From the NCBI RefSeq assembly GCF_000423405.1, contig NZ_AUHX01000008.1, positions 1 through 64,000 on the forward strand: a stretch of DNA of 64,000 nucleotides. The letters are read 5' to 3'. Shown in pieces: positions 1-54,823 of this stretch. Numbering within the stretch: position 1 is the first letter of the stretch; each line of letters starts with the position of its first letter. The notes under the pieces were generated by a model. That model saw nothing but the letters and a program-made list of their open reading frames with translations. It was not told the origin of the DNA and searched no databases. Source of the stretch: Mesonia mobilis DSM 19841 (lineage in GTDB: Bacteria > Bacteroidota > Bacteroidia > Flavobacteriales > Flavobacteriaceae). Both the position numbers and the translations under genes were made by a program.

Positions 1-3000
1 GCTCCAGCTATAGCTGTACCATCTAAGTACCACTGATAGTTTACTCCTGCAGGAGCTCCGTCTGCTGAGGCTGTAAAAGTAATTGTATGACTTGGCACAG
101 GCTCACTATCTGAACAATAAGGGATTGTGATCGCTGTCTCTCCTTGGGTTGCTGTTATCGTTAAGTCGATAGCTGCTTCTGTATAAACTACACTTGCACT
201 TACCTCACAACTTCCATCAGAATCGTTTACTGATACTGCGGTCACCGTATAAGTACCAAAGCCATAGCTTGAAGGATCTAAAGTTGCACCTGTTTCAGAA
301 GTTAACTCTGTTCCATCTAAAGACCAAGTATAAACTACATCTGATGCAGGCATATTTATTGGAGTCGCATCGATTGTATAAGGCGTAAGATCACAAGTTG
401 TAACATCTGAACCTAGATCTATCTGTGGCGATAAATCAAACAACAGATTTACTGAAGCTGTATCTGCACAACCATTAATGGTAACTTCAACTGTATAAGT
501 ATCACTATCCATCACTGTTAGAGTTGAACCAGTCTCTCCTGCTATAGGACCTGAACTATCACTCCACTGATATGTCGCGTTAGTTGTATCTTCATCAATT
601 ACAGTAGCTGTGATCGTGTAAGGATCCATTCCGCAGAATTCTTGATCTCCTCCTAGATCGATGTTATAAGTTACATCATCGATAACGATCTCATCGGTTC
701 CTACACAACTAAAAGTCATCCCGTTATTAGTGAATTCTCCTTCAACTAAAACAGTATATACACCGCCAGGTAAAGATGGCATCGCATCGGTTGAAACTTC
801 TAACCCGTCTGCATCTAACCAAGAGTAAGTTAAACTATCAAAATCTGAAGCATTTAATGGCGTAGCGTCTAAACTATAAGTTGCACCACTACATACTATT
901 GCGTCTGCTCCTAAATCTACTTGAGGTGCTTCGGTAAATTCTGCATTATAAGTTGCAGTTTCAAAACAACCTAAATAACTAACAGTTACAGTATATTGAC
1001 CATCTTCAGTAATCGTGATAGATGAAGTTTGCTCTCCTCCTGGAGCCCAAGTATAGGTTAAGTCATTCATTTCATCTGCAGGAACACCAATAATATTTGG
1101 CTCTAAAACAAAACTATTAGTATCTCCTTCTTCTGTACAACCTATAGAAACATTAGAGAAATCTACCTGATAATTCACTTGCTCAACAACTACAGAATCT
1201 GAAACTGTACATTGATAACCTGTAACTTCAACCGTATATTCACCAGCTTCAGTCACGTTAATTGTTGCGTTTGTTTCTCCTGCGATTTCGTTTCCATCTA
1301 AATACCAAGCATAAGTCACATCATCTAACTCTGAAAGGTTAGTTGGAGTACCATCAATTACAGTGGCACCAGCTTCACAAATCGTAATTATGTCGTTACC
1401 TAAATCTACTTCAGGGTTTGGTAAAAATTCTACATTTATCACATCTGACAATGCACAAGAACCAAAGTAAATAACCGAAACTGCATACTCTCCTCCCTCA
1501 GTAACATCTATCGTAGGAGTATTAACCGGATCACCATTCGCATCTTCAACTAAACTACCATCTTGATACCAAGTAATATCTGCTCCGTTAGTATTTTCTA
1601 AACCAATATCTAAAGTGATTGCATCTCCAGAACAAGTATCTGCAGTACCATCATCGATCGTAATATCTTCCCCTAACGTAAAGTCTCCTAACTCAAATGA
1701 ACCAGCAGCCAAAAAAGTACTTGAATTAAAAGAAGAATCTGATCGATCACCAACTGCTAATTTAATATGGTATTGTGCGCCAGGTGTAACTTGCGCACTA
1801 GCCGTCATCACCACAGTTCTTCCTAACATATTTACCGGCGATGCTAAAGGATTCATCCCTGTAGTTCCATAAAACACATCAAAATAAGACGGATTCACTG
1901 AAGCACAACTTCCATTATGTGTATTATCACGAACCGTAGTCACCGCAATCGGATCTGTAGTACCCGGAACTATAGCAATATTCACTGTATTCCCGTCTTC
2001 ATCGGTTAAGAAAAAACCAAAAGGATCTGAGAAAGTACACTGATAAGTTCCATATTCATTAGAAGCAAATAAGAAATCGAATGAAATTTGCTCAATAAAT
2101 GGCACAAAATCAAATTCTATTACACTTGCATCATTAGAACTAAGAGCTCCCGCGCCTTCAATCTGATCGATCAAATCATCCAAATCTGGATCACCAGGCC
2201 AAGCCGTATTAAATCCTCCAGCTCCTGCTGGTCCAGGTAAATCATTTACATCGCCACTAGACAACACAATACCATTTTCTAATGGGAAATTTGAATCATT
2301 ATAATCAAAGTAACTAATACCATTTACGCTTCCAAAATCTGATCCTGTTGATGAAGTTACATTAGATACTTGCGCACAAGGGTTATCTATTAAAACATCG
2401 ATCACAAGTTCTTCTATTGTATAGGTCGTTTCATCAATAATAATTGGAGGTTGCGGACAGTAAGTTTGCGTCTGAATAGGACTCTCTATAGAACAGCTAT
2501 TATCCTGATCGTTAACAGCTGTAAAAATCACTTCTGTATTATTAGCAAAAGGCCCAAAGTTAAAAGTATCTGTAGCAGTAACATCTATTGCTGCACTACC
2601 TTGGTTATCGGTAAGTGTTAAAGAAGTTGCAGAACCTAAATCATCTACAGTTACATCTATAAAAAATTGATCTGTACCACTTGCGCAATCACTGATCACC
2701 TCATAAGAAAGCGAAGGATTTAAACAAGTTGAACATTCTACAGATAAATCGATACCGGTATAACCAGATTCTCCACAAGCGTAGAAACCTGCCGTATACA
2801 CTACAGTAATTGTATCTCCTGTAGACTGGACTTCGATACCACTTAAGTCACCACCATCTCCTGTACCTGAGTATAGCACTGTACCATCGGTATCTAGCAC
2901 TTGGAAATCACCTCCAAAAGTGTAAATTAAACCGGAGTTCACCGTCAAGTTAATGTTAGACCCATCGTCACTCACATAAGACAATTGCACTGTTTCATAA

Positions 3001-6000
3001 TCTTCATAACAGAAGCTTGAATCAAATACACCATCTGCACAATCAAAATAATTCACAGGACAATATTCCTGAGTTAATGTAGAACTTGTAATCACACAAT
3101 TAATATCTTGATTATTTTCAACTGTAAAATCCACTAATGTTCCGTTTGCATAGGGTCCAAAGGTATAAACACCAGTAGCTGAAACTGTTTGCGTATCCCC
3201 TTGGTTGTCTGAAATATCTAAATCTGTAGCATCTCCTAAACTTGTAATATCCACATCTACTAAAAACTGCGCTCCATTTAAACAATCTTCAACTACCGTG
3301 TATGTTGCTTGAGGATTAACACATGTCGCACAAGAAACGGTAACATCTATAGGCGTATAACCATTAGACTGACATCCTATAACACCATCTGCAGCTACTT
3401 GAATAGTTATTGTATCACCAGAAGACTGGAAAGTTAATCCTGAAATATCACCTGATGTTCCATACCCGTTATAAAGCTCTGTACCATCACTATCTAAAAC
3501 TATAAACTCATCCCAGCCACTTTCTACTTGACCTTCATTTACAGTTAAATTTAAAGGTGAACCATCTGTACTTGTATAAATAAACTCTGTTGTTTCTCCG
3601 TTTTCATAACAGAAATTTGTATTTATAGGACCAGCAGAACAATCAACATAATTATTAAGACATTCTGCTTGCGTTAAGCCTGCAACTGAAATATCACAAG
3701 TAGCGTCTTGATTATTTACAACTGTAAAATCTACTAAAGTTCCATTTGTATAAGGACCAAATGTATAAACTCCTGTTGAAGAAGCCGTTTGTGTATTTCC
3801 TTGGTTATCGGTTATATCTACATCTGTAGCATCTCCTAAGCTTGTTAGATCTACCTCAACATTAAATTGCGGCCCATTCAAACAATCTTCAACAACTGTA
3901 AAATCTGCCGCCGGATTAATACAGGTCGCACAAAAAACAGTTAAATCTATCGGATCATAACCATTAGAAGCACAACTAGTAAACGCACTAGGATCAATCA
4001 TTACAGAAATTTCATCTCCTGTAGATTGAAATTCTAAGCCTGTTAAATCTCCTTCATTTCCGTAACCATTGTATAATTCTGTTCCACCAGTATCATAAAC
4101 AATAAATTCATCAATGTTATTCTGAACAAAGCCACTATTTACTTCAACAGTAAGAGGAGAGCCATCATCACTTGTATATATAAAAGTTAAAGGCTCACTA
4201 TTTTCATAACAAAAAGAAGTATTTATAGGCGTACCGCACTCAACATAATTATCTAAACAAAACTCTTGTGTTAACTCATCGCTAGAAATAATACAGCTTG
4301 AATCTTGATTATTTTCAACCGTAAAATCCACTAAAGTACCGTTAGTATAAGGACCAAAAGTATACACCCCTACCGCAGAAGCAGTTTGCGTATTCCCTTG
4401 GTTGTCTGAAATATCTAAATCTGTAGCGTCTCCTAAACTTGTAATTTCAACATCAATTAAGAACTGCGCTCCATTCACACAATCGCTCACTACCGTATAA
4501 TTTGCCTGAGGATTCAAACAAGTTGAGCAGGTTGCTTCGATATTAATTGGCGTGTAGCCCTGAGAACCACAATCAAAAACACCATCTGCAGCTACCTGCA
4601 CTGTAATCTCATCTCCACTTGACTGAAAAACTAAACCTGAAATATCTCCAGCAACACCATAACCATTATAGAGCTCTGTACCATCTGAATCTAAAACTAT
4701 AAACTCATCAAAATTATTCTCCACTTGACCTTCGGTAACATTAATAGTAATTCCCGAACCATCTGTCGATGCAAAAATGTACTCAGTTGTTTCTCCACTA
4801 TCATAACAAAAATTCACTACTTCTGGTGTTCCTGCAGCACAATCTACATAAGTCTCCAGACATTCTTCTTGCGTAAGCGTATTACTCGCAACCACACAGT
4901 TAGCATCTTGATTATTTTCAACTGTAAAATCTACATCTGTACCATTAGCATATGGACCAAAAGTATACACTCCTGCCGCATTAACAGTCTGAGTATTCCC
5001 CTGATTGTCTGAAATATCTAAATCTGTAGCATCACCAATACTTGCTAAATCTACATCAACTAAAAATTGCGACCCGTTCAAACAATCACTCACTACTTCA
5101 AAAGTAGCTTGAGGCATTATACAAGTTGCACAAGTAACTGAGACATCGATTGGCGTATAACCTTGAGAAGCGCAATCAAAGACACCATCAGCATTCACCT
5201 GAATAGTAATTTGATCTCCAGAGGTCTGAAATGAAAGACCAGATATATCTCCGGCAGCACCATAACCATTATAAAGCTCTGTACCGTCTGAATCTAATAC
5301 AACAAACTCGTCCCAGCCACTCTCTACTTGACCTTCATTCACCACTAGGTTTAAAGCAGAACCATCAGTAGAAGTAAAAATATATTCTGTAACTGTCCCG
5401 CTTACATAACAGAAATTCACTTCAGTTGGACCTGCAGAACAGTCTACCGTAACCATCGGACTGTCTTCTGTTGTAAAACTATACTCTACACAACCTGAAG
5501 CGTCTCCATTTGAATTTTGTGGAGTAATCGTAACATAATATGTAGTCTCGAAATCTAAAGCTCCTAAATCATAAGATGTAGAAGATCCATTTTCGAAGTT
5601 ATCTAATATATCTACACCTCCAGGCGAAGTCCCTACAGAAAGCAAGTAAGAACTAGCACCTCCAGTAGCAGCATCCCATTCTAATGTAACATCTTCAACC
5701 AGCACTCCGGTAGCACCGTCTGCCGGCAAGGTTAAAACTGCATCACAATTAGGCGGGTTAACTAAAGGTGTTGCCGTAAAATCTGTAACATCAAAATCTA
5801 AGTCGTTAGGAGAACCCCATTGACCTACTGCTATGTAAACAGTTTCATTTGCACCAACTACAGCATCTACCGATTGCTCAAAATCAGAAGTAAAGCCAGC
5901 TCCTACAGCTCCTAAACAATTTGAAAACGATGTGCCGTCACAATCAGTAAAAACACCTAAACCAGTATAGGTGTTTCTCGTGTAAACAGTCATCGAAATT

Positions 6001-6251
6001 TCTTCATCTACAGCTCCTGCTGTATATTCAAAAAGATAAACATCATCATCCCAATATAAGCCATCAACACCGCAGCTTGCATCGGGATTATCATTCCAAT
6101 CTTCTACACCACCCGAACCCGGAGTGTTGATATTATCTTCGGTATACCCATCGGTAATGACCACAGCAGAATCACAGCCAAACTGAGCCATCACATTCGG
6201 ACAAACCAAAAATGTCATTAGTAAAATTAATAAAAAGGTAATTTTTTTCAT
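1..6251 (-). CDS. Giant secreted multidomain adhesin-like protein (5' part, cut by window edge)
   Basis: The reading frame is open on the minus strand from ATG 6251 through position 1 (about 2083 codons) with no stop, so the C-terminus lies outside. It begins with a Sec signal peptide (MKKITFLLILLMTFLVCPNVMA, then Q). Next come a Cys-containing beta domain (residues ~25-160), a fibronectin-III-like segment (~165-265) and five tandem ~200-residue units (~268-1265). A choice-of-anchor L-like domain follows (~1270-1525, with VNGISYFDYNDSNFP and FLFASNEYGTYQC), then Cys-paired Ig/PKD-like repeats with WYLDG and GEYTV motifs. Proteins of this build in Flavobacteriia usually end in a type IX secretion/gliding C-terminal signal; that end is not visible here. 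Probable role: cell-surface adhesion or matrix binding. The function is inferred; the secretion signal and repeats are seen. Confidence 0.85.
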   Translation of the reverse strand, partial: MKKITFLLILLMTFLVCPNVMAQFGCDSAVVITDGYTEDNINTPGSGGVEDWNDNPDASCGVDGLYWDDDVYLFEYTAGAVDEEISMTVYTRNTYTGLGVFTDCDGTSFSNCLGAVGAGFTSDFEQSVDAVVGANETVYIAVGQWGSPNDLDFDVTDFTATPLVNPPNCDAVLTLPADGATGVLVEDVTLEWDAATGGASSYLLSVGTSPGGVDILDNFENGSSTSYDLGALDFETTYYVTITPQNSNGDASGCVEYSFTTEDSPMVTVDCSAGPTEVNFCYVSGTVTEYIFTSTDGSALNLVVNEGQVESGWDEFVVLDSDGTELYNGYGAAGDISGLSFQTSGDQITIQVNADGVFDCASQGYTPIDVSVTCATCIMPQATFEVVSDCLNGSQFLVDVDLASIGDATDLDISDNQGNTQTVNAAGVYTFGPYANGTDVDFTVENNQDANCVVASNTLTQEECLETYVDCAAGTPEVVNFCYDSGETTEYIFASTDGSGITINVTEGQVENNFDEFIVLDSDGTELYNGYGVAGDISGLVFQSSGDEITVQVAADGVFDCGSQGYTPINIEATCSTCLNPQANYTVVSDCVNGAQFLIDVEITSLGDATDLDISDNQGNTQTASAVGVYTFGPYTNGTLVDFTVENNQDSSCIISSDELTQEFCLDNYVECGTPINTSFCYENSEPLTFIYTSDDGSPLTVEVNSGFVQNNIDEFIVYDTGGTELYNGYGNEGDLTGLEFQSTGDEISVMIDPSAFTSCASNGYDPIDLTVFCATCINPAADFTVVEDCLNGPQFNVEVDLTSLGDATDVDITDNQGNTQTASSTGVYTFGPYTNGTLVDFTVVNNQDATCDISVAGLTQAECLNNYVDCSAGPINTNFCYENGETTEFIYTSTDGSPLNLTVNEGQVESGWDEFIVLDSDGTELYNGYGTSGDISGLTFQSSGDTITIQVAADGVIGCQSNGYTPIDVTVSCATCVNPQATYTVVEDCLNGAQFLVDVDITSLGDATDLDISDNQGDTQTVSATGVYTFGPYANGTLVDFTVENNQDINCVITSSTLTQEYCPVNYFDCADGVFDSSFCYEDYETVQLSYVSDDGSNINLTVNSGLIYTFGGDFQVLDTDGTVLYSGTGDGGDLSGIEVQSTGDTITVVYTAGFYACGESGYTGIDLSVECSTCLNPSLSYEVISDCASGTDQFFIDVTVDDLGSATSLTLTDNQGSAAIDVTATDTFNFGPFANNTEVIFTAVNDQDNSCSIESPIQTQTYCPQPPIIIDETTYTIEELVIDVLIDNPCAQVSNVTSSTGSDFGSVNGISYFDYNDSNFPLENGIVLSSGDVNDLPGPAGAGGFNTAWPGDPDLDDLIDQIEGAGALSSNDASVIEFDFVPFIEQISFDFLFASNEYGTYQCTFSDPFGFFLTDEDGNTVNIAIVPGTTDPIAVTTVRDNTHNGSCASVNPSYFDVFYGTTGMNPLASPVNMLGRTVVMTASAQVTPGAQYHIKLAVGDRSDSSFNSSTFLAAGSFELGDFTLGEDITIDDGTADTCSGDAITLDIGLENTNGADITWYQDGSLVEDANGDPVNTPTIDVTEGGEYAVSVIYFGSCALSDVINVEFLPNPEVDLGNDIITICEAGATVIDGTPTNLSELDDVTYAWYLDGNEIAGETNATINVTEAGEYTVEVTGYQCTVSDSVVVEQVNYQVDFSNVSIGCTEEGDTNSFVLEPNIIGVPADEMNDLTYTWAPGGEQTSSITITEDGQYTVTVSYLGCFETATYNAEFTEAPQVDLGADAIVCSGATYSLDATPLNASDFDSLTYSWLDADGLEVSTDAMPSLPGGVYTVLVEGEFTNNGMTFSCVGTDEIVIDDVTYNIDLGGDQEFCGMDPYTITATVIDEDTTNATYQWSDSSGPIAGETGSTLTVMDSDTYTVEVTINGCADTASVNLLFDLSPQIDLGSDVTTCDLTPYTIDATPINMPASDVVYTWSLDGTELTSETGATLDPSSYGFGTYTVTAVSVNDSDGSCEVSASVVYTEAAIDLTITATQGETAITIPYCSDSEPVPSHTITFTASADGAPAGVNYQWYLDGTAIAG
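2455..5446 (-). repeat. Five tandem ~600-bp coding units in the secreted protein
   Basis: Five in-frame units begin near 5446, 4850, 4247, 3650 and 3050, a period of about 595-603 bp (~200 residues). Each has a start like YVDC, an FCY motif, a D(S/T)(D/G)GTELYNGYG-like stretch, a closing CATC or CSTC cysteine pair, then NPQA...VV.DC and a DNQGNTQT...GVYTFGPY segment. The first half looks CUB-like. Units 1-4 are very similar and the fifth has diverged most. Confidence 0.85.
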
Positions 6252-6488
6252 TAAGGATGGGTTTTTGAGTTAAGGCTTTGAAGATATAAAAATTATTAAT
6301 TATTTCTTAACTGAAGTTTTGTTTTTTTAAATCTTCAATCTTAAAATATCACAAAAACCATCAGCATTCACAAGGGTTGAAGCCGATTGTTAATTTTTTA
6401 GCATTTTGAAAAAATTTTTCACACTGTTAAATTAATATTAGAATAACATATGGCTAAATACTTAAGTAATACCTTAGAATACTTTTCT

Positions 6489-6496
6489 TAACTTTG
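6489..6496 (+). promoter_or_regulatory. Candidate -7 box TAACTTTG upstream of hflX
   Basis: TAACTTTG fits the Bacteroidetes -7 consensus TAnnTTTG and lies 24 bases before the hflX ATG, giving a short leader. No clear -33 TTG is present at the usual distance, so this rests on one element only. Confidence 0.5.
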
Positions 6497-6519
6497 AATG
6501 AATAATCGAAAATTAAAAT

Positions 6520-33707: not shown

Positions 33708-34061
33708 TTGAAAAAAGTTTATCACCTATCGACTTGCGACACTTGCAAACGAATTTTAAAAGAAGTAAACCTCCCCGATGATGTAGAACAACAAGACATC
33801 AAAACCGAGCCCATCACTTCTACTCAACTAGAAGAAATGCAATCGCTATCGGGAAGTTATGAAAGTTTATTTAGTAAACGAGCGCAACTCTATCGCAAAC
33901 GCGACTTAAAAAATAAAGACTTAAAAGAAGAAGATTTTAAAAATTTAATTTTAGAACATTACACCTTTTTAAAATGACCGGTTTTTATGTTAGACGGAAA
34001 AATTTTTATTGGCAACAGCAAAAAAACTGTTGAAGCTGTGAAGCAGCAACTTCATGGATAA
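33708..34061 (+). pseudogene. ArsC/Spx-family thioredoxin-fold gene interrupted by an in-frame TGA
   Basis: From a TTG at 33708 the frame encodes 89 residues with the ArsC-family N-terminus (VYHLSTCDTCKRIL, CxxC at 10-13), then stops at TGA 33975-33977. Beyond it the same frame stays open for 27 more codons (PVFMLDGKIFIGNSKKTVEA...) to TAA 34059-34061. Together they give 117 residues, the normal family length. The TGA falls where ArsC proteins have the conserved Arg of the R-P motif, so CGA to TGA is a likely cause. The full frame overlaps the next gene's start by eight bases, as expected for an intact coupled gene. The truncated form probably lacks function. Confidence 0.8.
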
Positions 34062-45835: not shown

Positions 45836-46584
45836 TTAGAGGACTTTTAAATCATTTTCTTTGATCCAGCCTTGTCGGCCATCGGCTAATTCAATTTTAT
45901 AGAAGTTATTAAATTCATCTAACAATTTAATTTTAGTGCCTTCGTGTAGAATAAATGCGTTTGAAGAACTTGGGTTAGGTTCAGATAAAACCGTAGATTC
46001 TTCAGCAAAAACTATTGCAAACTTCTTTTCTGCTGAATATCGAATTGTAAATAAGCAAATACTACAGAAGAGATCATTACCAAAGTACTTACCACAAAAA
46101 GCGTAAAAAAGGCTCTTTTTTTGGTGGTCGTTGCAGAAAAATAATACAAGAAAAAGAACACGACTAAAATTACAGAAGCCACAACTGCCAACCAAGCCCA
46201 GCCGTTGTAACTCAATTTAGAAATAATACCGTCTACGATTTTAGAAAGACTTCCTTTAGGCAAAGTTTCAATAGCATCTAAAGTCATATTCTGTGCAAAA
46301 ACCAGATTGTTTTGCGCATCTTTATGATTAGGATCGAGCAACAATGCTTTTTCGTAATTATAAACACTTGGCGCGATGTGATCTAGTTTGTAATGTGCAT
46401 TTGCCAGATTGTAGTAGAGATTAGCAGAAGTCTCACCATTCGCTAAAATCTGTTCATATTTATCGATGGCATTATTATAATTACCATTTGCATAATCTTG
46501 AGAAGCTTGCTCAAACAAAGCTTCGTTATCTTGAGCAAACAAACTTGTACTTAGCAATAAAAAAACAATCAATAACTTTTTCAT
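45836..46584 (-). pseudogene. batE: BatE (TPR-SH3 protein) split by a frameshift
   Basis: The first frame (46584 to 46012, 190 residues) has a signal peptide, TPRs (YYNLANAHYKLDHIAPSVYNYEKALLLDPNH) and two membrane helices, then ends in QQKRSLQ. A second frame continues with KKFAIVFAEESTVLSEPN and an SH3-like domain to the stop at 45836. Adding one A to the AAAA run near 46029 would join them as a ~249-residue protein, the usual BatE layout. This is either a real frameshift lesion or a sequencing/assembly error in a homopolymer. Without the SH3 domain BatE function may be lost or changed. It is the last bat gene. Confidence 0.8.
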
Positions 46585-46585
46585 C

Positions 46586-48355
46586 TTACCACTGCTTATC
46601 TAATTCTGAAATTGTTGTTTTGGCTTTATTGTAATCTTGTTGCATCCCAACATTAGAAGTTGGCGTATAGCGAGCAAACTCACAACTTTCTAAAATACCG
46701 ATAAATGCTGAAATCGTTTCTTGCTCTACGCCACGCTCTGCCAATAAAGCTTTGATCTTATCTTTGCTCATTTCTCCCGTTTTAATAGAAAGTTTCGCCT
46801 TTAAATAATTATGCAACGCGCGTTCTAAAGCTTCGTAAAACTGCTTTTGGTCGCCTAAATTTTTCTTTGCTTCAGATAAATATTTACGAGCAAGTTTATC
46901 GGCTTTTTTAGACGTATTATTGGCTGCATCTGCCAAATAGCTTTTACGTTTTTTTCCGGTAACAATCCCTATCGGAATTAATAATAACGGCATCACTACT
47001 CCTGTCCAAAAACCAACACTTTTAAAAAACGGAGAACGATCAATCGGTTTTAAATTAGCGTCTAGCTGAATATATTTAAATTGACTTGGCGCTGAAGCTA
47101 CCGCTTGTTTGGTGTTTCCATCAGAAGTTGTCGAAGTTACCTGAGCCGCATTATTGATCGGGCCGTTTTCAACATTTAATAAAATCTCTTCGGAAGTAAG
47201 CGTTTTATAGGTTTCTGTTCTTGGGTCGAAATAACTAAAACTTACCGGATTTATAGGGTATTTTCCTTTTAACTGCGGAACAACCGTGTAGTTATCAGAA
47301 ATGTTCCCGTACATTCCATTTAAATTGGTATTTACATTTTCTAGATGTTCCGGTTCGTAAACTTCTAAAGAAGACGGTAAATTTAACTTCGGAAGCTGAA
47401 ATAATTTTAAATTCCCATTCCCCGAAACCTGAAGCTTAATTTGCAAAGATTCTGTAGCATCCAACACGTCTTTTGTATTGGTCACTTTAAAGTTGAAACT
47501 CCCAACAGCTCCCGTAAAATTAGCCGGTTTGCCTTCGCTAGGCAACGCTTTTACATCGATGGTTTGATTGTTAGAAGAAACGGTGCGTTCAATGGTTTCA
47601 TATAAACGTCTTCCAAAAATATCTCGACGGTCTGAAGGTACATTTACAGGAACGGTAAGCGAAAGAGGTTCTATTTTTAACTTTCCGGTTTTCTGCGGAT
47701 AAAGTACCGTTTCTCGAATCACTACATATTGGTAAGGATCGCCACGATAGAGATCTTCTTTTACGCTTAAATGTTTAATATCGATATCTTGACTCCAAAA
47801 ATCGGCATACGTCGGGTTGTCTTTTGGGTACCATTGTCTAACGGTAATTTCCGGACTAAAATAGAGTTTGTATCGTACCGAAATACCTTCATTTAAATAC
47901 GGGTTTCGGTTAGAAATTTCAGCTACTAAATGAATATTATCGGCCGCAATAATTTCTGGGTTTCTTCCTTCGGTTGGTGTATCGACAGCGGCGGTTACTT
48001 CAATATCGATAAAAGGTGTTTTGTAGGTTTGCCCCTCTATTTCTACTTCAGCTTGACCAATTTTAAAGTTTCCTCTTCCGTTAGGTTGTAGAAAATAACT
48101 ATACTTTTTTTGAAAAGACATTCTACCATTGGTAAAACTCTGACTGATCGACTGGTTGGGACCACCAATTACCGTAAAGCCTTTAAAATCTGGCGGATTA
48201 AAATTATCTCCGTCTTGATTCATTGTAAAATCGACACGTAAACGTTCGTTAACGCCTAGCTTTTCTCGGCTGGCTTCGGCTTCAAATTTTACTTGTGCCC
48301 AACCGGAAACCGAAACAAACAACAGGATGTAAAAAATAAACTGCTTCATCTTCAT
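46586..48355 (-). CDS. batD: BatD, oxygen-tolerance protein
   Basis: A ~589-residue membrane protein with a signal peptide (ends SGWAQ), beta-rich periplasmic domains typical of BatD (EKLGVNERLRVDFTMNQDGDNF; SVRYKLYFSPEITVRQWYP), a membrane helix near residue 445 and a cytoplasmic helical tail. The ATG at 48355 overlaps the stop of batC as TAATG, so translation is coupled; a TTG at 48361 is less likely. Bat proteins were named for aerotolerance in Bacteroides; the mechanism is unclear. Confidence 0.93.
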   Translation of the reverse strand: MKMKQFIFYILLFVSVSGWAQVKFEAEASREKLGVNERLRVDFTMNQDGDNFNPPDFKGFTVIGGPNQSISQSFTNGRMSFQKKYSYFLQPNGRGNFKIGQAEVEIEGQTYKTPFIDIEVTAAVDTPTEGRNPEIIAADNIHLVAEISNRNPYLNEGISVRYKLYFSPEITVRQWYPKDNPTYADFWSQDIDIKHLSVKEDLYRGDPYQYVVIRETVLYPQKTGKLKIEPLSLTVPVNVPSDRRDIFGRRLYETIERTVSSNNQTIDVKALPSEGKPANFTGAVGSFNFKVTNTKDVLDATESLQIKLQVSGNGNLKLFQLPKLNLPSSLEVYEPEHLENVNTNLNGMYGNISDNYTVVPQLKGKYPINPVSFSYFDPRTETYKTLTSEEILLNVENGPINNAAQVTSTTSDGNTKQAVASAPSQFKYIQLDANLKPIDRSPFFKSVGFWTGVVMPLLLIPIGIVTGKKRKSYLADAANNTSKKADKLARKYLSEAKKNLGDQKQFYEALERALHNYLKAKLSIKTGEMSKDKIKALLAERGVEQETISAFIGILESCEFARYTPTSNVGMQQDYNKAKTTISELDKQW

Positions 48356-49215
48356 TACCAATCTTTATCTGTGCTTTTAGGCTGACCTTTTGCTCTTCGA
48401 GCGTTAATTTTATCTTGAATTTCTTTTTCTTGATTCTCCATAGCTTCTAACAAATTCTTCATTTGTTGCGGCGACATTTGTCCTTTTACCGGCTGCTGGC
48501 TTTGCTCTTTTCCTTCTTTACCGCTATCTTTTTGTTGTTGCTTATCGGGTTGCGGTTTTTCTTTATCGCCCTCGCCTTCTTTTTTCTCTTGCTTATTTTC
48601 TTCGCTTCCCTGCTCTTGATTTTTGCCTTGATCGCCTTCTTGGTTATCTTTTTTATCTTGGTTTTTCTGCTGGTCTTCTTTGTTTTCTCCTTCTTCGTCT
48701 TTATTCTTTTTATTCTGCTCTTCTTGATCTTTGCTCTTATCTTGATCTTGCTGCATTTGCTCAGCTTTCTTTTTGGCGATCGCTAAATTATAACGCGTTT
48801 CTTCATCGGTCGGGTCGTTTCTTAAAGCATTTTTATAAGCTTCGACCGCTTCGCCATATTTTTCTTCTTTCATAAAAACATTTCCTTGGTTGTGAAATGC
48901 TTTGTGTTTAGTCGATTTACTTTCTGAAACTTTGGCAGATTGATTAAGTCTCGAAACCGATTCTAAGTTTTTTTCTTTATTGTGATAAACCGTCCCCAAA
49001 TTATACCTTAGTTCAGCATTATCGGGATCTTTAGAGATCGCCTCGCGGTATTTGGCTTCAGCTTTTGCAAACTCGTTATTCGCCATCGCGTTTTGCGCTT
49101 CAAAAGCTAAGGTTTTAGCTTCAGTTTGTCGTTGTTTGGCTTCTTCATCTTGCGCTTTTGCCTGAAAAGCTACTGAAAAAACTAAACCTATAAGTACAAT
49201 TAGTTTATGCTTCAT
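48355..49215 (-). CDS. batC: BatC, TPR protein with charged low-complexity tail
   Basis: From ATG 49215 the product has a signal peptide (MKHKLIVLIGLVFSVAFQAKAQ) and TPRs at ~30-140 (AELRYNLGTVYHNKEKNLES; YGEAVEAYKNALRNDPTDEE). A Lys/Glu/Asp/Gln-rich stretch of over 90 residues follows, and a short conserved tail (MSPQQMKNLLEAMENQEKEI). An ATG 15 bases upstream is also in frame. The start overlaps the batB stop, consistent with coupling. The charged stretch may be flexible and periplasmic. Confidence 0.9.
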   Translation of the reverse strand: MKHKLIVLIGLVFSVAFQAKAQDEEAKQRQTEAKTLAFEAQNAMANNEFAKAEAKYREAISKDPDNAELRYNLGTVYHNKEKNLESVSRLNQSAKVSESKSTKHKAFHNQGNVFMKEEKYGEAVEAYKNALRNDPTDEETRYNLAIAKKKAEQMQQDQDKSKDQEEQNKKNKDEEGENKEDQQKNQDKKDNQEGDQGKNQEQGSEENKQEKKEGEGDKEKPQPDKQQQKDSGKEGKEQSQQPVKGQMSPQQMKNLLEAMENQEKEIQDKINARRAKGQPKSTDKDW

Positions 49216-50254
49216 CTTCTTTCTTTTCATTAAATAAATTCAGCCTTCTTATCCAAGAGGTTTTACGTTCTAACACCAATACATCTAAAACTATAAAAAG
49301 TATGCCAAAGCCTAAAAACCATTGAAACTGATCTTTATAATCTGCAAATTGCTGACTTTCGAATTCGGTTTTTTCAATATTGGCTAAAATGTCATTCACC
49401 TTATCGATCACTTGGCTTGTGTTATTCCCGCTAATATACTCGCCGTTGGTTTCTTCTGAAATTTGCTGAAGTGTACTTTCGTCTAACTTCGTGATCACCG
49501 TTTCACCACTACTATCTTTTTTATACGATTGCGTGACGTTATTTCTTTTGATGGGAATAGGTCCGCCTTTAGCTGAACCAACGCCGATGGTGAAAATGCG
49601 TATTCCTTTTTCGGCAGCTTGCTCTGCAATATCTTCAATATTACCACCGTGATCTTCACCATCGCTAATTAAAAATAGAACACGATTGGTTTCAGACTCA
49701 TCATTGTAATAGGTTTGTGCAAGTTCGATAGCTTCGTTAATCGCCGTACCTTGGCTAGAAACCATATCGGTATTCATCGCTTGTAAAAACAACTTGGCAG
49801 AACCGTAATCGGTTGTAATTGGCAACTGCGGAAATGCCGAACCTGCATAAGCAATGATCCCTACGCGATCGCTAGTTAGATTATTAATGATCTGCGTAAC
49901 CAGCTGCTTCGATTTTTCTAAACGGTTGGGTGCAATATCTTCTGCAAGCATACTTTTACTCACATCGATCGCAAAAACAATATCGACACCTTCACGTTTA
50001 ACGGTTTCCATTTTAGAACCGATCTTTGGGTTAACAAGCGCCATCGTTAAAAAAGCGATCGCTAAACTCCAAAACAAAACTTTTAATATCGGTTTAAACC
50101 TCGATTTATTCGGACTTAATTTTTCTAAAGAAACCGGAGTTGCGAATTTTTGCTGGGCTTTTTTCTTCCAAATAAGTTGAAGAAAATAAATAACAATCAC
50201 CACGGCAATTGCCAGTAAAAACCAAAAATATATTTTCTCTTCTAAAACTACCAT
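49205..50254 (-). CDS. batB: BatB, von Willebrand A domain membrane protein
   Basis: A 349-residue protein with two N-terminal helices, a vWA domain (~90-290) carrying a complete MIDAS motif (FAIDVSKSMLAED, with DxSxS) and a C-terminal helix. It resembles BatA, its upstream neighbour, and is probably a product of an ancient duplication. The vWA domain faces the periplasm and likely binds BatD/C partners through a metal. It abuts batA with no gap. Confidence 0.94.
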   Translation of the reverse strand: MVVLEEKIYFWFLLAIAVVIVIYFLQLIWKKKAQQKFATPVSLEKLSPNKSRFKPILKVLFWSLAIAFLTMALVNPKIGSKMETVKREGVDIVFAIDVSKSMLAEDIAPNRLEKSKQLVTQIINNLTSDRVGIIAYAGSAFPQLPITTDYGSAKLFLQAMNTDMVSSQGTAINEAIELAQTYYNDESETNRVLFLISDGEDHGGNIEDIAEQAAEKGIRIFTIGVGSAKGGPIPIKRNNVTQSYKKDSSGETVITKLDESTLQQISEETNGEYISGNNTSQVIDKVNDILANIEKTEFESQQFADYKDQFQWFLGFGILFIVLDVLVLERKTSWIRRLNLFNEKKEDEA

Positions 50255-51265
50255 TTATACAAAACTTCTAAATATTGTGTTTCTAAGTATAATTTCAATT
50301 AAAAAAAGTAAGCCGGCTAAGATGACTAACGGTCTATATTTTTCTTCGTAATTATAAAATTTAGATTCTTCTATTTCTGTTTTTTCCAGTTTATTGATCT
50401 CTTCGTAGATCTCTTCCAACTTTTCGTTATTAGTCGCTCTAAAATACTTCCCGTTGGTTTGGTTAGAGATCTGTTTCATTAAATCTTCGTCAATTTCAAC
50501 CTTTGTTGGGCCGTATCTAAATTGCCCGCTGCGATCGATACCAATTGGCCCCAAAGCGGTTCCGTTAGAACCTAAACCAATAGTGTACACTTTTATGTCG
50601 TATTCTACGGCTAATTCTCCCGCAATTTTAGGATCGATGAAACCCGTATTATTCACTCCGTCAGAAAGTAAAATGATCACTTTACTTTTTGCTTTACTAT
50701 CTTTTAAACGGTTTACTGAGGTTGCTAATCCCATCCCAATTGCAGTACCATTTTCTAACAAATCGCTATACTGAATATCTTCTAAGGCACTTTGCACAAT
50801 GGCTTTGTCGCTAGTGATCGGGGTTTTTGTAAAACTTTCACCGGCGTAAGCCACCAAACCAATACGATCGTTTGGGCGACCTTCGATAAACTCTGCAGCT
50901 ACTTCTTTTAAAGCTTCTAAACGATTAGGTTTTAAATCTCTTGCCAACATACTAGGCGAAACATCGATAGCCATTACAATATCGATCCCTTGCGTTTTTT
51001 TGGTTCTCGAAGTAACATCGACCGTTCTTGGTCTTGCCATTGCGGTAATTAATAAGGCAAGACAAAGCAACCTCAGCACAAATAGAACCGGTCTTAGTTT
51101 AGGTAAAATACCTTGTTTTATTTTGAAACCTTTGATGCTGGAAATTTTAACTTCCGGGGTTTGTAGGTTTCGCTTCCAGATATACCAAGCAATTAGTATT
51201 GGAAATAATAGAAATAACCAAAACCATTGCGGATTTTCGAAAGTGATGTTATTAAAATCGAACAT
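50255..51265 (-). CDS. batA: BatA, von Willebrand A domain membrane protein
   Basis: A 336-residue protein with two N-terminal helices, a vWA domain with intact MIDAS (MAIDVSPSMLARD) and a C-terminal helix (LVILAGLLFLIEIILR). The stop of the DUF4381-like gene upstream shares a base with the batA start. It belongs to the bat operon and is likely to form a membrane complex with BatB. Confidence 0.94.
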   Translation of the reverse strand: MFDFNNITFENPQWFWLFLLFPILIAWYIWKRNLQTPEVKISSIKGFKIKQGILPKLRPVLFVLRLLCLALLITAMARPRTVDVTSRTKKTQGIDIVMAIDVSPSMLARDLKPNRLEALKEVAAEFIEGRPNDRIGLVAYAGESFTKTPITSDKAIVQSALEDIQYSDLLENGTAIGMGLATSVNRLKDSKAKSKVIILLSDGVNNTGFIDPKIAGELAVEYDIKVYTIGLGSNGTALGPIGIDRSGQFRYGPTKVEIDEDLMKQISNQTNGKYFRATNNEKLEEIYEEINKLEKTEIEESKFYNYEEKYRPLVILAGLLFLIEIILRNTIFRSFV

Positions 51266-52899
51266 TAGTTTTCTCTGTTAAATTCTATTGAATTAATAAT
51301 ACGATTAGCTATTTCTTCAGCGTACTCATCTCCTTTATTGTAGATAACAGTAACTTGCTCAAAACCTCCATTTTCAAAAAGATTTAGAATCAAATATTCT
51401 TTAGTTTGATCTCTATCTAATAAAGGATTTTTATAGACGGCACTTCCAAAAACTTTAATTCCCTCCTGCCCGGTTGCTGTAGTAAATTTTTCATCTTTCA
51501 TGATAATATTCCTAGCTCCATTTTTTTCCATCTCATTAAGGATACCATCAACCGTTCCATTCAAATTAAAGTCTATACCAGATGGTATCGGCATTGTACT
51601 TAGCATAATGTGAAAATCCCCTAATTCTGGCCCGTAATTAAAGACTTCCATTTCTAAAGTTTGTTTACCAAAAGTCATTTTCACAGGCTCTTTAATTCTT
51701 GTTAGCACCGCTGGTGTACTTACGGTTACTGATGGAAAACCATATTCGCTTTTTACCCAATCGCCTTCTAATAGTTCTTTAGTAGGAGTACCAAGCAACT
51801 GATCTTTTACAGCATTATAGCCTTTAATGCCGATAAACGTAAAAATGCCGATAAAACCAATAGCAAATCCAAGAGCTACTGAAATGATTATCGTTCGCTT
51901 TTTCTTTTTTCTTCGTTTTTCTTCAGCGTAGGCTTCGTCTTTAAGCAATTCTTCTTCTGTAGGTTCTGGGATCGAATCTTTAATACTATTAATATCTTCT
52001 TCGATTAATTGACGGTCGGCTTTTGCTGTGAGTTTATCCATTCCGCCGCCGGCGAACTTAATTAAATCGGCTCGGCGTAGAATATCTTGCAGATCGTTTA
52101 TTACCTTATGTTTAACGAGTATAGATTTATTCGCTTTTAATTCATTTAAATGTTGAATAAGCTCTTCTGTGGTACTTTCTAAAGCGCGTTCGTCTATTTT
52201 TTCATCGATATATCTTTTTACCGCTAAAGTTAAGGTTGAATAATATTCCTTCATTTCACCACGCTCCAACGCCTGACTTTCATCTAATTTTTTAAGCGTA
52301 TCGATCGCTTTCTCGTAGGGCGGAATTTGCTGTTCTCTTTCAATCTTACGCTGACGCAATTTTAAGAACAACAACACTAAACCGGCTACTGCGGCAATCA
52401 CCAAAATTAACCAAAGAATCCACCACGGGAACGAAGAAGGTTCTTCTATCTCGATCGTTGGTTTTATAGGAAATAAGGCTTGTTTAGTCGTATCGACCAC
52501 GACCGTGGCAACTTCAACTTTAATTGAATCGGTAAATAAACTTTGGTCGTTTACGATTATTTTTTGCTTCGGAATCACATAAGAACCCGAATCCCATTGC
52601 GTTAATGCATATTCTCGCGTTAACTGCCAGGTTTTATTATCTTTTAGCCGAGTGGTATCTATTTGGTAAGCCTCGACCATTTCTAGCGGCATAAACGTTT
52701 GCCCTTCAGGAAAAACTACCGGAAAATCTTTATTGGCTTCAACTTTTATTTGATAACGAAATTGCTCACCGATCTTTAGCTGAGTCGTATCGATAGAAGA
52801 TATAACTTCTTGCGCGTAAGTTTGCTGAAGAAATAGCACTGCCAATACCGCAAAAAACAAGCTTTTGCTCTTAGCTATTTTTGTTACTAACTGCTTCAT
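51265..52899 (-). CDS. DUF4381-like membrane protein of the bat operon
   Basis: A 544-residue protein with a signal peptide (ends QQTYAQ), an N-terminal periplasmic beta domain similar to BatD (~30-150, SIDTTQLKIGEQFRYQIKVE), and a membrane helix (~160-180, FPWWILWLILVIAAVAGLVL). A cytoplasmic helical part follows (~190-330), then a second helix near 340 and a C-terminal domain of ~190 residues. The first half matches the DUF4381 proteins that sit between DUF58 and vWA genes; the extra C-terminal domain (EGDWVKSEYGFPSVTVSTPA) has no assignment. It is one base after the DUF58 gene. Confidence 0.8.
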   Translation of the reverse strand: MKQLVTKIAKSKSLFFAVLAVLFLQQTYAQEVISSIDTTQLKIGEQFRYQIKVEANKDFPVVFPEGQTFMPLEMVEAYQIDTTRLKDNKTWQLTREYALTQWDSGSYVIPKQKIIVNDQSLFTDSIKVEVATVVVDTTKQALFPIKPTIEIEEPSSFPWWILWLILVIAAVAGLVLLFLKLRQRKIEREQQIPPYEKAIDTLKKLDESQALERGEMKEYYSTLTLAVKRYIDEKIDERALESTTEELIQHLNELKANKSILVKHKVINDLQDILRRADLIKFAGGGMDKLTAKADRQLIEEDINSIKDSIPEPTEEELLKDEAYAEEKRRKKKKRTIIISVALGFAIGFIGIFTFIGIKGYNAVKDQLLGTPTKELLEGDWVKSEYGFPSVTVSTPAVLTRIKEPVKMTFGKQTLEMEVFNYGPELGDFHIMLSTMPIPSGIDFNLNGTVDGILNEMEKNGARNIIMKDEKFTTATGQEGIKVFGSAVYKNPLLDRDQTKEYLILNLFENGGFEQVTVIYNKGDEYAEEIANRIINSIEFNREN

Positions 52900-53821: not shown

Positions 53822-54823
53822 CTATGGCACTTCAATTTCATTTACGATCTTACCTACAATATCTTCTGAAGTAATATTTTCTGCTTCAGCTTCATAAGTA
53901 ATCCCTATTCTGTGGCGTAAAATATCGAGTACTACGGCTCTTACATCTTCCGGAATTACGTAACCTCTTCTTTTAATAAACGCATAACACTTGGCGGCTG
54001 TCGCTAAGTTAATACTTCCTCTTGGTGAAGCTCCAAAAGAGATTAAAGGTTTTAAGGATTCTAATTTATATTTCTCCGGGTAACGGGTCGCAAAAATGAT
54101 ATCGAGAATATATTTCTCAATTTTTTCATCCATATAAACTTCACGGACGGCTTGTTGAGCAGTTAAAATTTGCTCTAACGAAACTACCGGATTCACTTTC
54201 TCGAAAGATCCTTTTAAATTGGCTCTTACGACTAATTGTTCTTCTTCTAGTTTAGGATAATCGATTACCGTTTTTAGCATAAAACGGTCAACTTGTGCTT
54301 CTGGCAATGGGTAAGTACCTTCTTGCTCGACCGGGTTTTGCGTTGCCATTACTAAGAAAGGTTTGTCTAACACAAAGGTTTGTTCACCAATGGTTACTTG
54401 CTTTTCTTGCATCGCTTCCAGTAACGCCGATTGTACTTTTGCCGGCGCACGGTTGATCTCATCTGCCAGTACGAAATTTGCAAAAATTGGTCCTTTCTTA
54501 ATGCTGAAGTCATTGTCCTTCATATTATAAATCATCGTACCCACAACATCGGCAGGAAGTAAATCTGGCGTAAACTGAATTCTGCTGAAACTTCCTTTCA
54601 CTGCTTTAGAAAGGGTGTTAATGGCTAAGGTTTTTGCCAAACCGGGAACACCTTCTAGTAAAATATGACCTTGCCCTAATAAACCAATAAGCAAGCGTTC
54701 GATCATGTGTTTTTGACCGATGATCACTTTGTTCATCTCATTAGTTAGCAAATCTACAAACGCACTTTCACGTTGTATTTTTTCATTTAAACCTGCAATA
54801 TCTACGGATGTGTTTTCTTCCAT
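53822..54823 (-). CDS. MoxR family AAA+ ATPase
   Basis: A 333-residue AAA+ ATPase with Walker A EGVPGLAKT, Walker B VLADEINRAP and sensor region MATQNPVEQEGTYPLPEAQVDRFM. MoxR ATPases act as chaperones for vWA-domain proteins; here the partners are the DUF58 and BatA/BatB proteins encoded downstream. It heads the ~9-kb operon down to batE, with a full -33/-7 promoter ~100 bases upstream. Confidence 0.96.
   Translation of the reverse strand: MEENTSVDIAGLNEKIQRESAFVDLLTNEMNKVIIGQKHMIERLLIGLLGQGHILLEGVPGLAKTLAINTLSKAVKGSFSRIQFTPDLLPADVVGTMIYNMKDNDFSIKKGPIFANFVLADEINRAPAKVQSALLEAMQEKQVTIGEQTFVLDKPFLVMATQNPVEQEGTYPLPEAQVDRFMLKTVIDYPKLEEEQLVVRANLKGSFEKVNPVVSLEQILTAQQAVREVYMDEKIEKYILDIIFATRYPEKYKLESLKPLISFGASPRGSINLATAAKCYAFIKRRGYVIPEDVRAVVLDILRHRIGITYEAEAENITSEDIVGKIVNEIEVP

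Follow-up and report, generated by a model that had tools for sequence, protein, structure and literature searches.

Is the broken reading frame of batE in Mesonia mobilis DSM 19841 a lesion carried by the strain, an error of the assembly, or a slippage site from which intact protein is still made? These three options were raised by a sequence-only reading of the window, i.e., the whole stretch of 64,000 nucleotides analyzed here (positions 1 to 64,000 of contig NZ_AUHX01000008.1), which also claimed that batE is split by a one-base frameshift in an A run near 46029, that one extra A restores a BatE of about 249 residues, and that the rest of the operon is intact.

The batE frame break and its operon

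The batE gene, a member of a bacterial operon that is widespread and encodes a membrane complex, lies on the minus strand between 46584 and 45836, and its 749 bases correspond to 250 codons minus one base. The frame opened by the ATG at 46584 encodes 190 aa and ends at a TAG stop (46012-46014), with TPR matches in Pfam (TPR_2, E 5.9e-9); coding for the SH3_3 domain continues in a different frame, whose stop ends at 45836. The break sits in CAGAAAAGAAG, which contains four As at 46029-46026. The features of the locus, all on the minus strand, are the following:

45836..46030, minus: batE 3' part, in the other frame, with the SH3_3 domain (Pfam E 6.5e-7; 95% to intact relative)
46012..46584, minus: batE 5' part, with a hydrophobic N-terminus, a TPR region and two predicted long helices, 190 aa to the TAG (Pfam; AlphaFold2 model of intact relative)
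46026..46029, minus: four-A run at the frame break, five As in G010 and G004 (alignments)
46116..46122, minus: seven-A run upstream in batE, where a one-frame slip would also lead to the SH3 frame, through a scrambled second helix (sequence)
46586..48361, minus: batD, intact (Pfam BatD, E 7.7e-39; match to relatives)
48355..49230, minus: batC-like TPR protein, intact (Pfam; match to relatives; name from operon place)
49205..50254, minus: batB-like VWA protein, intact (Pfam VWA; NCBIfam BatB 7e-46, below cut-off; match to relatives)
50255..51265, minus: batA-like VWA protein, intact (NCBIfam BatA 1.3e-61, below cut-off; match to relatives)
53822..54823, minus: MoxR-like AAA ATPase at the operon head, intact (weak AAA family matches; match to relatives)

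When batE was aligned with the DNA of the nearest relative, G010, a single gap was found in 750 columns, located precisely at the A run, which has five As in G010 and in G004, the two nearest relatives. The intact BatE of G010 has 249 residues, of which residues 1-187 match one frame of the window at 97% and residues 186-249 the other frame at 95%. This match of both frames to one protein indicates that the break is more than chance. Thus, both the split and its repair by one additional A, as claimed from the sequence alone, were confirmed by comparison with G010.

The claim of an otherwise intact operon also held. Seven genes are found upstream of batE, encoding a MoxR-like protein, two unnamed proteins, BatA, BatB, BatC, and BatD, and all of them have near full-length matches, free of stops and in conserved order, in G010 and G004. 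Their names deserve some caution, as the NCBIfam Bat models are, by name, Leptospira models whose cut-offs are not reached by the matches obtained here, and MoxR is a name that we assume from operon context. Regarding batE itself, its place after batA-batD and the presence of a TPR region followed by two membrane helices (the former from Pfam, the latter deduced from the model of a 97%-identical relative) are those of a BatE, whereas the C-terminal SH3_3 domain, present in the DNA, is not in the same frame. A second copy that could compensate for the break was not found in the strain's own genome, in which the three other matches are of TPR type with 28-37% identity.

Two further observations were made in the window. 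The operon gene upstream of batA (51265-52899, minus strand) shows only 73.5% identity to G010 and 63% to G004, whereas the six remaining genes that precede batE reach 97-100% and 81-98%, respectively; fast evolution or recombination within the operon could account for this low identity. In addition, no closed ORF of at least 100 aa is listed for positions 1-6519, and this empty first 6.5 kb perhaps corresponds to one large gene running off the left end.

batE in relatives and the age of the break

A search for batE in 99 genomes, including that of the strain, gave matches in 88. All 15 other genomes of the same genus carry open batE frames of 251-262 codons, and outside the genus two best matches had frames shorter than 240 codons (186 in G081 and 218 in G093). 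The seven best named BatE matches belong to six Mesonia and to Salegentibacter sp. R32. A total of 73 loci, comprising the window, the best 29 relatives' loci from the genome search and 43 from a second search, were read and yielded 65 distinct BatE proteins. The 64 proteins other than that of the window are all closed, encoded in a single frame and 240-260 aa long, and hence this is the one genome in which the break was observed. This comparison with relatives, which had been proposed as a check, therefore shows that the break is not conserved; intact orthologues in close relatives and a break restricted to one genome are the pattern expected of a frameshift lesion.

The same data bear on whether the short BatE could be a selected, functional form without SH3 domain. 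The intact TPR and helix part would be compatible with this idea, as would the 9-10 synonymous changes, with no clearly assigned non-synonymous change, that accumulated in the 5' part on the window branch. However, TPR_2 and SH3_3 were found together in 43 of the 43 relatives scanned, none of the 64 proteins read is short, and the lost part holds 8 of the 26 invariant columns, making selection for a short form barely credible.

Substitution patterns were used to date the break. Between the window and G010, 13 synonymous and 2 non-synonymous changes separate the last 61 codons when counted by codon (pN/pS 0.039), or 12 and 3 when counted by site, and the first 186 codons show 19 synonymous and 4 non-synonymous changes (pN/pS 0.054). 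Both parts are alike in this respect (Fisher P = 1.0), and the two changed residues of the SH3 part are also variable in relatives. When the changes of the SH3 part were sorted with outgroups, the numbers of synonymous and non-synonymous changes assigned to the window branch were 6 and 2 with G004, 3 and 0 with G002, and 4 and 1 with G014, small numbers in each case and with 3-5 changes left unassigned by each outgroup. This pattern fits an SH3 frame that has been under selection for the greater part of the period since divergence from G010. With 13 synonymous and 2 non-synonymous differences from the nearest relative, the break would be either recent, or an error and thus absent from the living strain.

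Deletion in the strain or error in the sequence

A recent one-base deletion in the short A run, present in the strain and generated by what would have been replication slippage, is the explanation that we consider probable. Nothing unusual is needed to explain the break, which is an ordinary case. The competing explanation is an isolated sequence or assembly error, in which the batE gene of the strain would be intact and one A would be missing from the consensus. One-base losses in A runs are common among consensus errors, the break occurs in a single assembly, and an isolated error would leave just the intact-looking selection pattern, free of relaxation, that was observed in the SH3 frame.

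To set against this, a census of frame disruptions was carried out on 349 gene places (362 kb) in 1.35 Mb of the strain's own genome, queried with ORFs of G010 and G004. These places contain 2,433 homopolymer runs of five and 1,097 longer ones, i.e., 3,530 runs of at least five. On inspection, four places looked disrupted, and batE was the sole single-base homopolymer break. The second is a 117-residue Spx/ArsC-like gene (33708-34061, plus strand) whose frame is uninterrupted in G010 as well as in G004 and which has suffered a nonsense change, the arginine codon of G010 being replaced by an in-frame TGA (33975-33977); its 89-residue fragment matches TIGR01617 with an E of 3.2e-7, below the family cut-off. 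The other two, compared with G010 only, are a 251-codon gene (C2:234609-235353) with an 8-base tandem-repeat contraction plus a nonsense codon, and a 107-codon gene (C10:3072-3388) with a 4-base gap.

Three candidates were discarded: G004 C1:117187-118197, whose stop at residue 68 of 336 probably reflects an over-long start; G010 C9:1136-1552, for which the query ORF already includes a stretch of N; and G010 C22:6649-7401, where the break affects only the first 16 residues, with a one-base gap just before a plausible ATG, and which was also taken as an over-long start. In reverse searches, ORFs of the strain's genome pointed to 1 candidate in G004; of the 9 obtained in G010, two were inspected, and one of these two lies at a run of N.

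As a control, 348 places each received a randomly positioned single-base deletion, and the procedure flagged 313 of 317 checked genes with G010 queries and 124 of 127 with G004 queries (about 98%), counts that include a few genes already flagged without the planted deletion. The census was run with a loosened merging rule. Stricter rules overlooked batE when the query came from G004, owing to an overlap of about 50 residues between its two matches, and one of those rules overlooked it with the G010 query as well.

A platform that often lost bases in A runs would have left more breaks than the one found among 349 places and 3,530 runs, making a systematic homopolymer error unlikely. Moreover, a five-base run is easy for most sequencing platforms, and the contigs are long (up to 562,720 bases), with no N in C7 (215,339 bases). 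Thus, an error confined to this site is the less likely explanation, albeit one of appreciable weight, and of the three options initially raised the lesion is the best supported. The third, a slippage site at the four-A run, found little support.

Slippage, the predicted product and known systems

Ribosomal or transcriptional slippage, on the four As of the junction or on the seven As upstream, would allow some full-length BatE to be made. The conservation of the SH3 part is consistent with such recoding, as is the SH3 frame being open from 46195 on, which would make it accessible to slippage on the seven As as well. Nevertheless, relatives encode BatE in one frame, indicating that there is no conserved need for a frameshift, and neither a split frame nor a slippery site is conserved in the orthologues. 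The upstream run varies among relatives, with 6-8 As at this position in 7 of the 12 relatives read, and fewer in the other 5; G010 lacks the seven-A run. A slip there would put a less hydrophobic stretch in place of the second helix (best 19-residue hydropathy 1.09 vs 2.33). At the junction itself, inspection of the sequence revealed no in-frame A AAA AAG, the classic slippery heptamer. There is neither a long A/T run nor a stimulatory structure, since the run has four As and RNA folding from the junction onwards is no better than that of shuffled sequences (z -0.06). Recoding is therefore very improbable, and it is even harder to accept that the strain makes BatE as a mixture of short and long forms through low-level slippage, whether on the four As of the junction itself or, about 90 bases upstream of it, on the seven As.

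If the deletion is present in the strain, as we favor, its consequences for the protein can be anticipated from the AlphaFold2 model of an intact relative (mean pLDDT 86), which consists of TPR-like helices, two long helices (126-149 and 153-186), and, starting at residue 188, a distinct beta domain. According to this model, a break at codon 187-188 would sever the SH3 domain from the second helix. The ribosome would stop at the TAG, releasing a 190-residue, membrane-anchored TPR protein without SH3 domain whose last four residues would be foreign, and BatE function would presumably be lost or reduced. In a fold comparison against the PDB, the best 50 of 1178 matches were mainly TPR proteins, together with some cell-wall peptidases and an endolysin matching over about 70 columns, which we take to correspond to the SH3 part of BatE. 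Separate production of the SH3 domain is probably not to be expected, given that no start codon occurs in its frame shortly after the break: the sole ATG, GTG, or TTG is a TTG placed 36 codons into the 66-codon stretch, deep in the domain. A TTG at 46195, before the break, opens the SH3 frame and is a candidate start.

In annotation, batE should be marked as a single frameshifted gene. A real lesion would make this strain a natural experiment on whether BatE can do without its SH3 domain. With regard to bat function, reduced aerotolerance is reported for a bat transposon mutant of Bacteroides fragilis, and no oxidative-stress defect after deletion of bat genes in Leptospira biflexa (PMC3557215). 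Literature searches returned no paper on a batE frameshift by title among the matches listed (Flavobacteri scope), and nothing was found on frameshifts in Mesonia genomes.

Three known systems help to place this locus. As in the transcriptional slippage genes described in PMC1088944, the batE frame is disrupted at an A run; unlike those genes, which have runs of about nine A or T, batE has a run of four As and relatives without a split frame. The BatE of Mesonia sp. UWMA-0090 (DTTX01000021.1), which is the same protein as that of G010 and belongs to a bat (Bacteroides aerotolerance) operon, likewise follows batD and comprises a TPR region, two helices, and SH3_3, with identities of 97% over residues 1-187 and 95% over the rest, and differs in that the frame in the window is broken ahead of the SH3 part. 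Finally, one-base deletions in short homopolymers give rise to bacterial pseudogenes or strain lesions, and batE resembles these in having one base fewer in an A run, in a single genome, with little relaxation.
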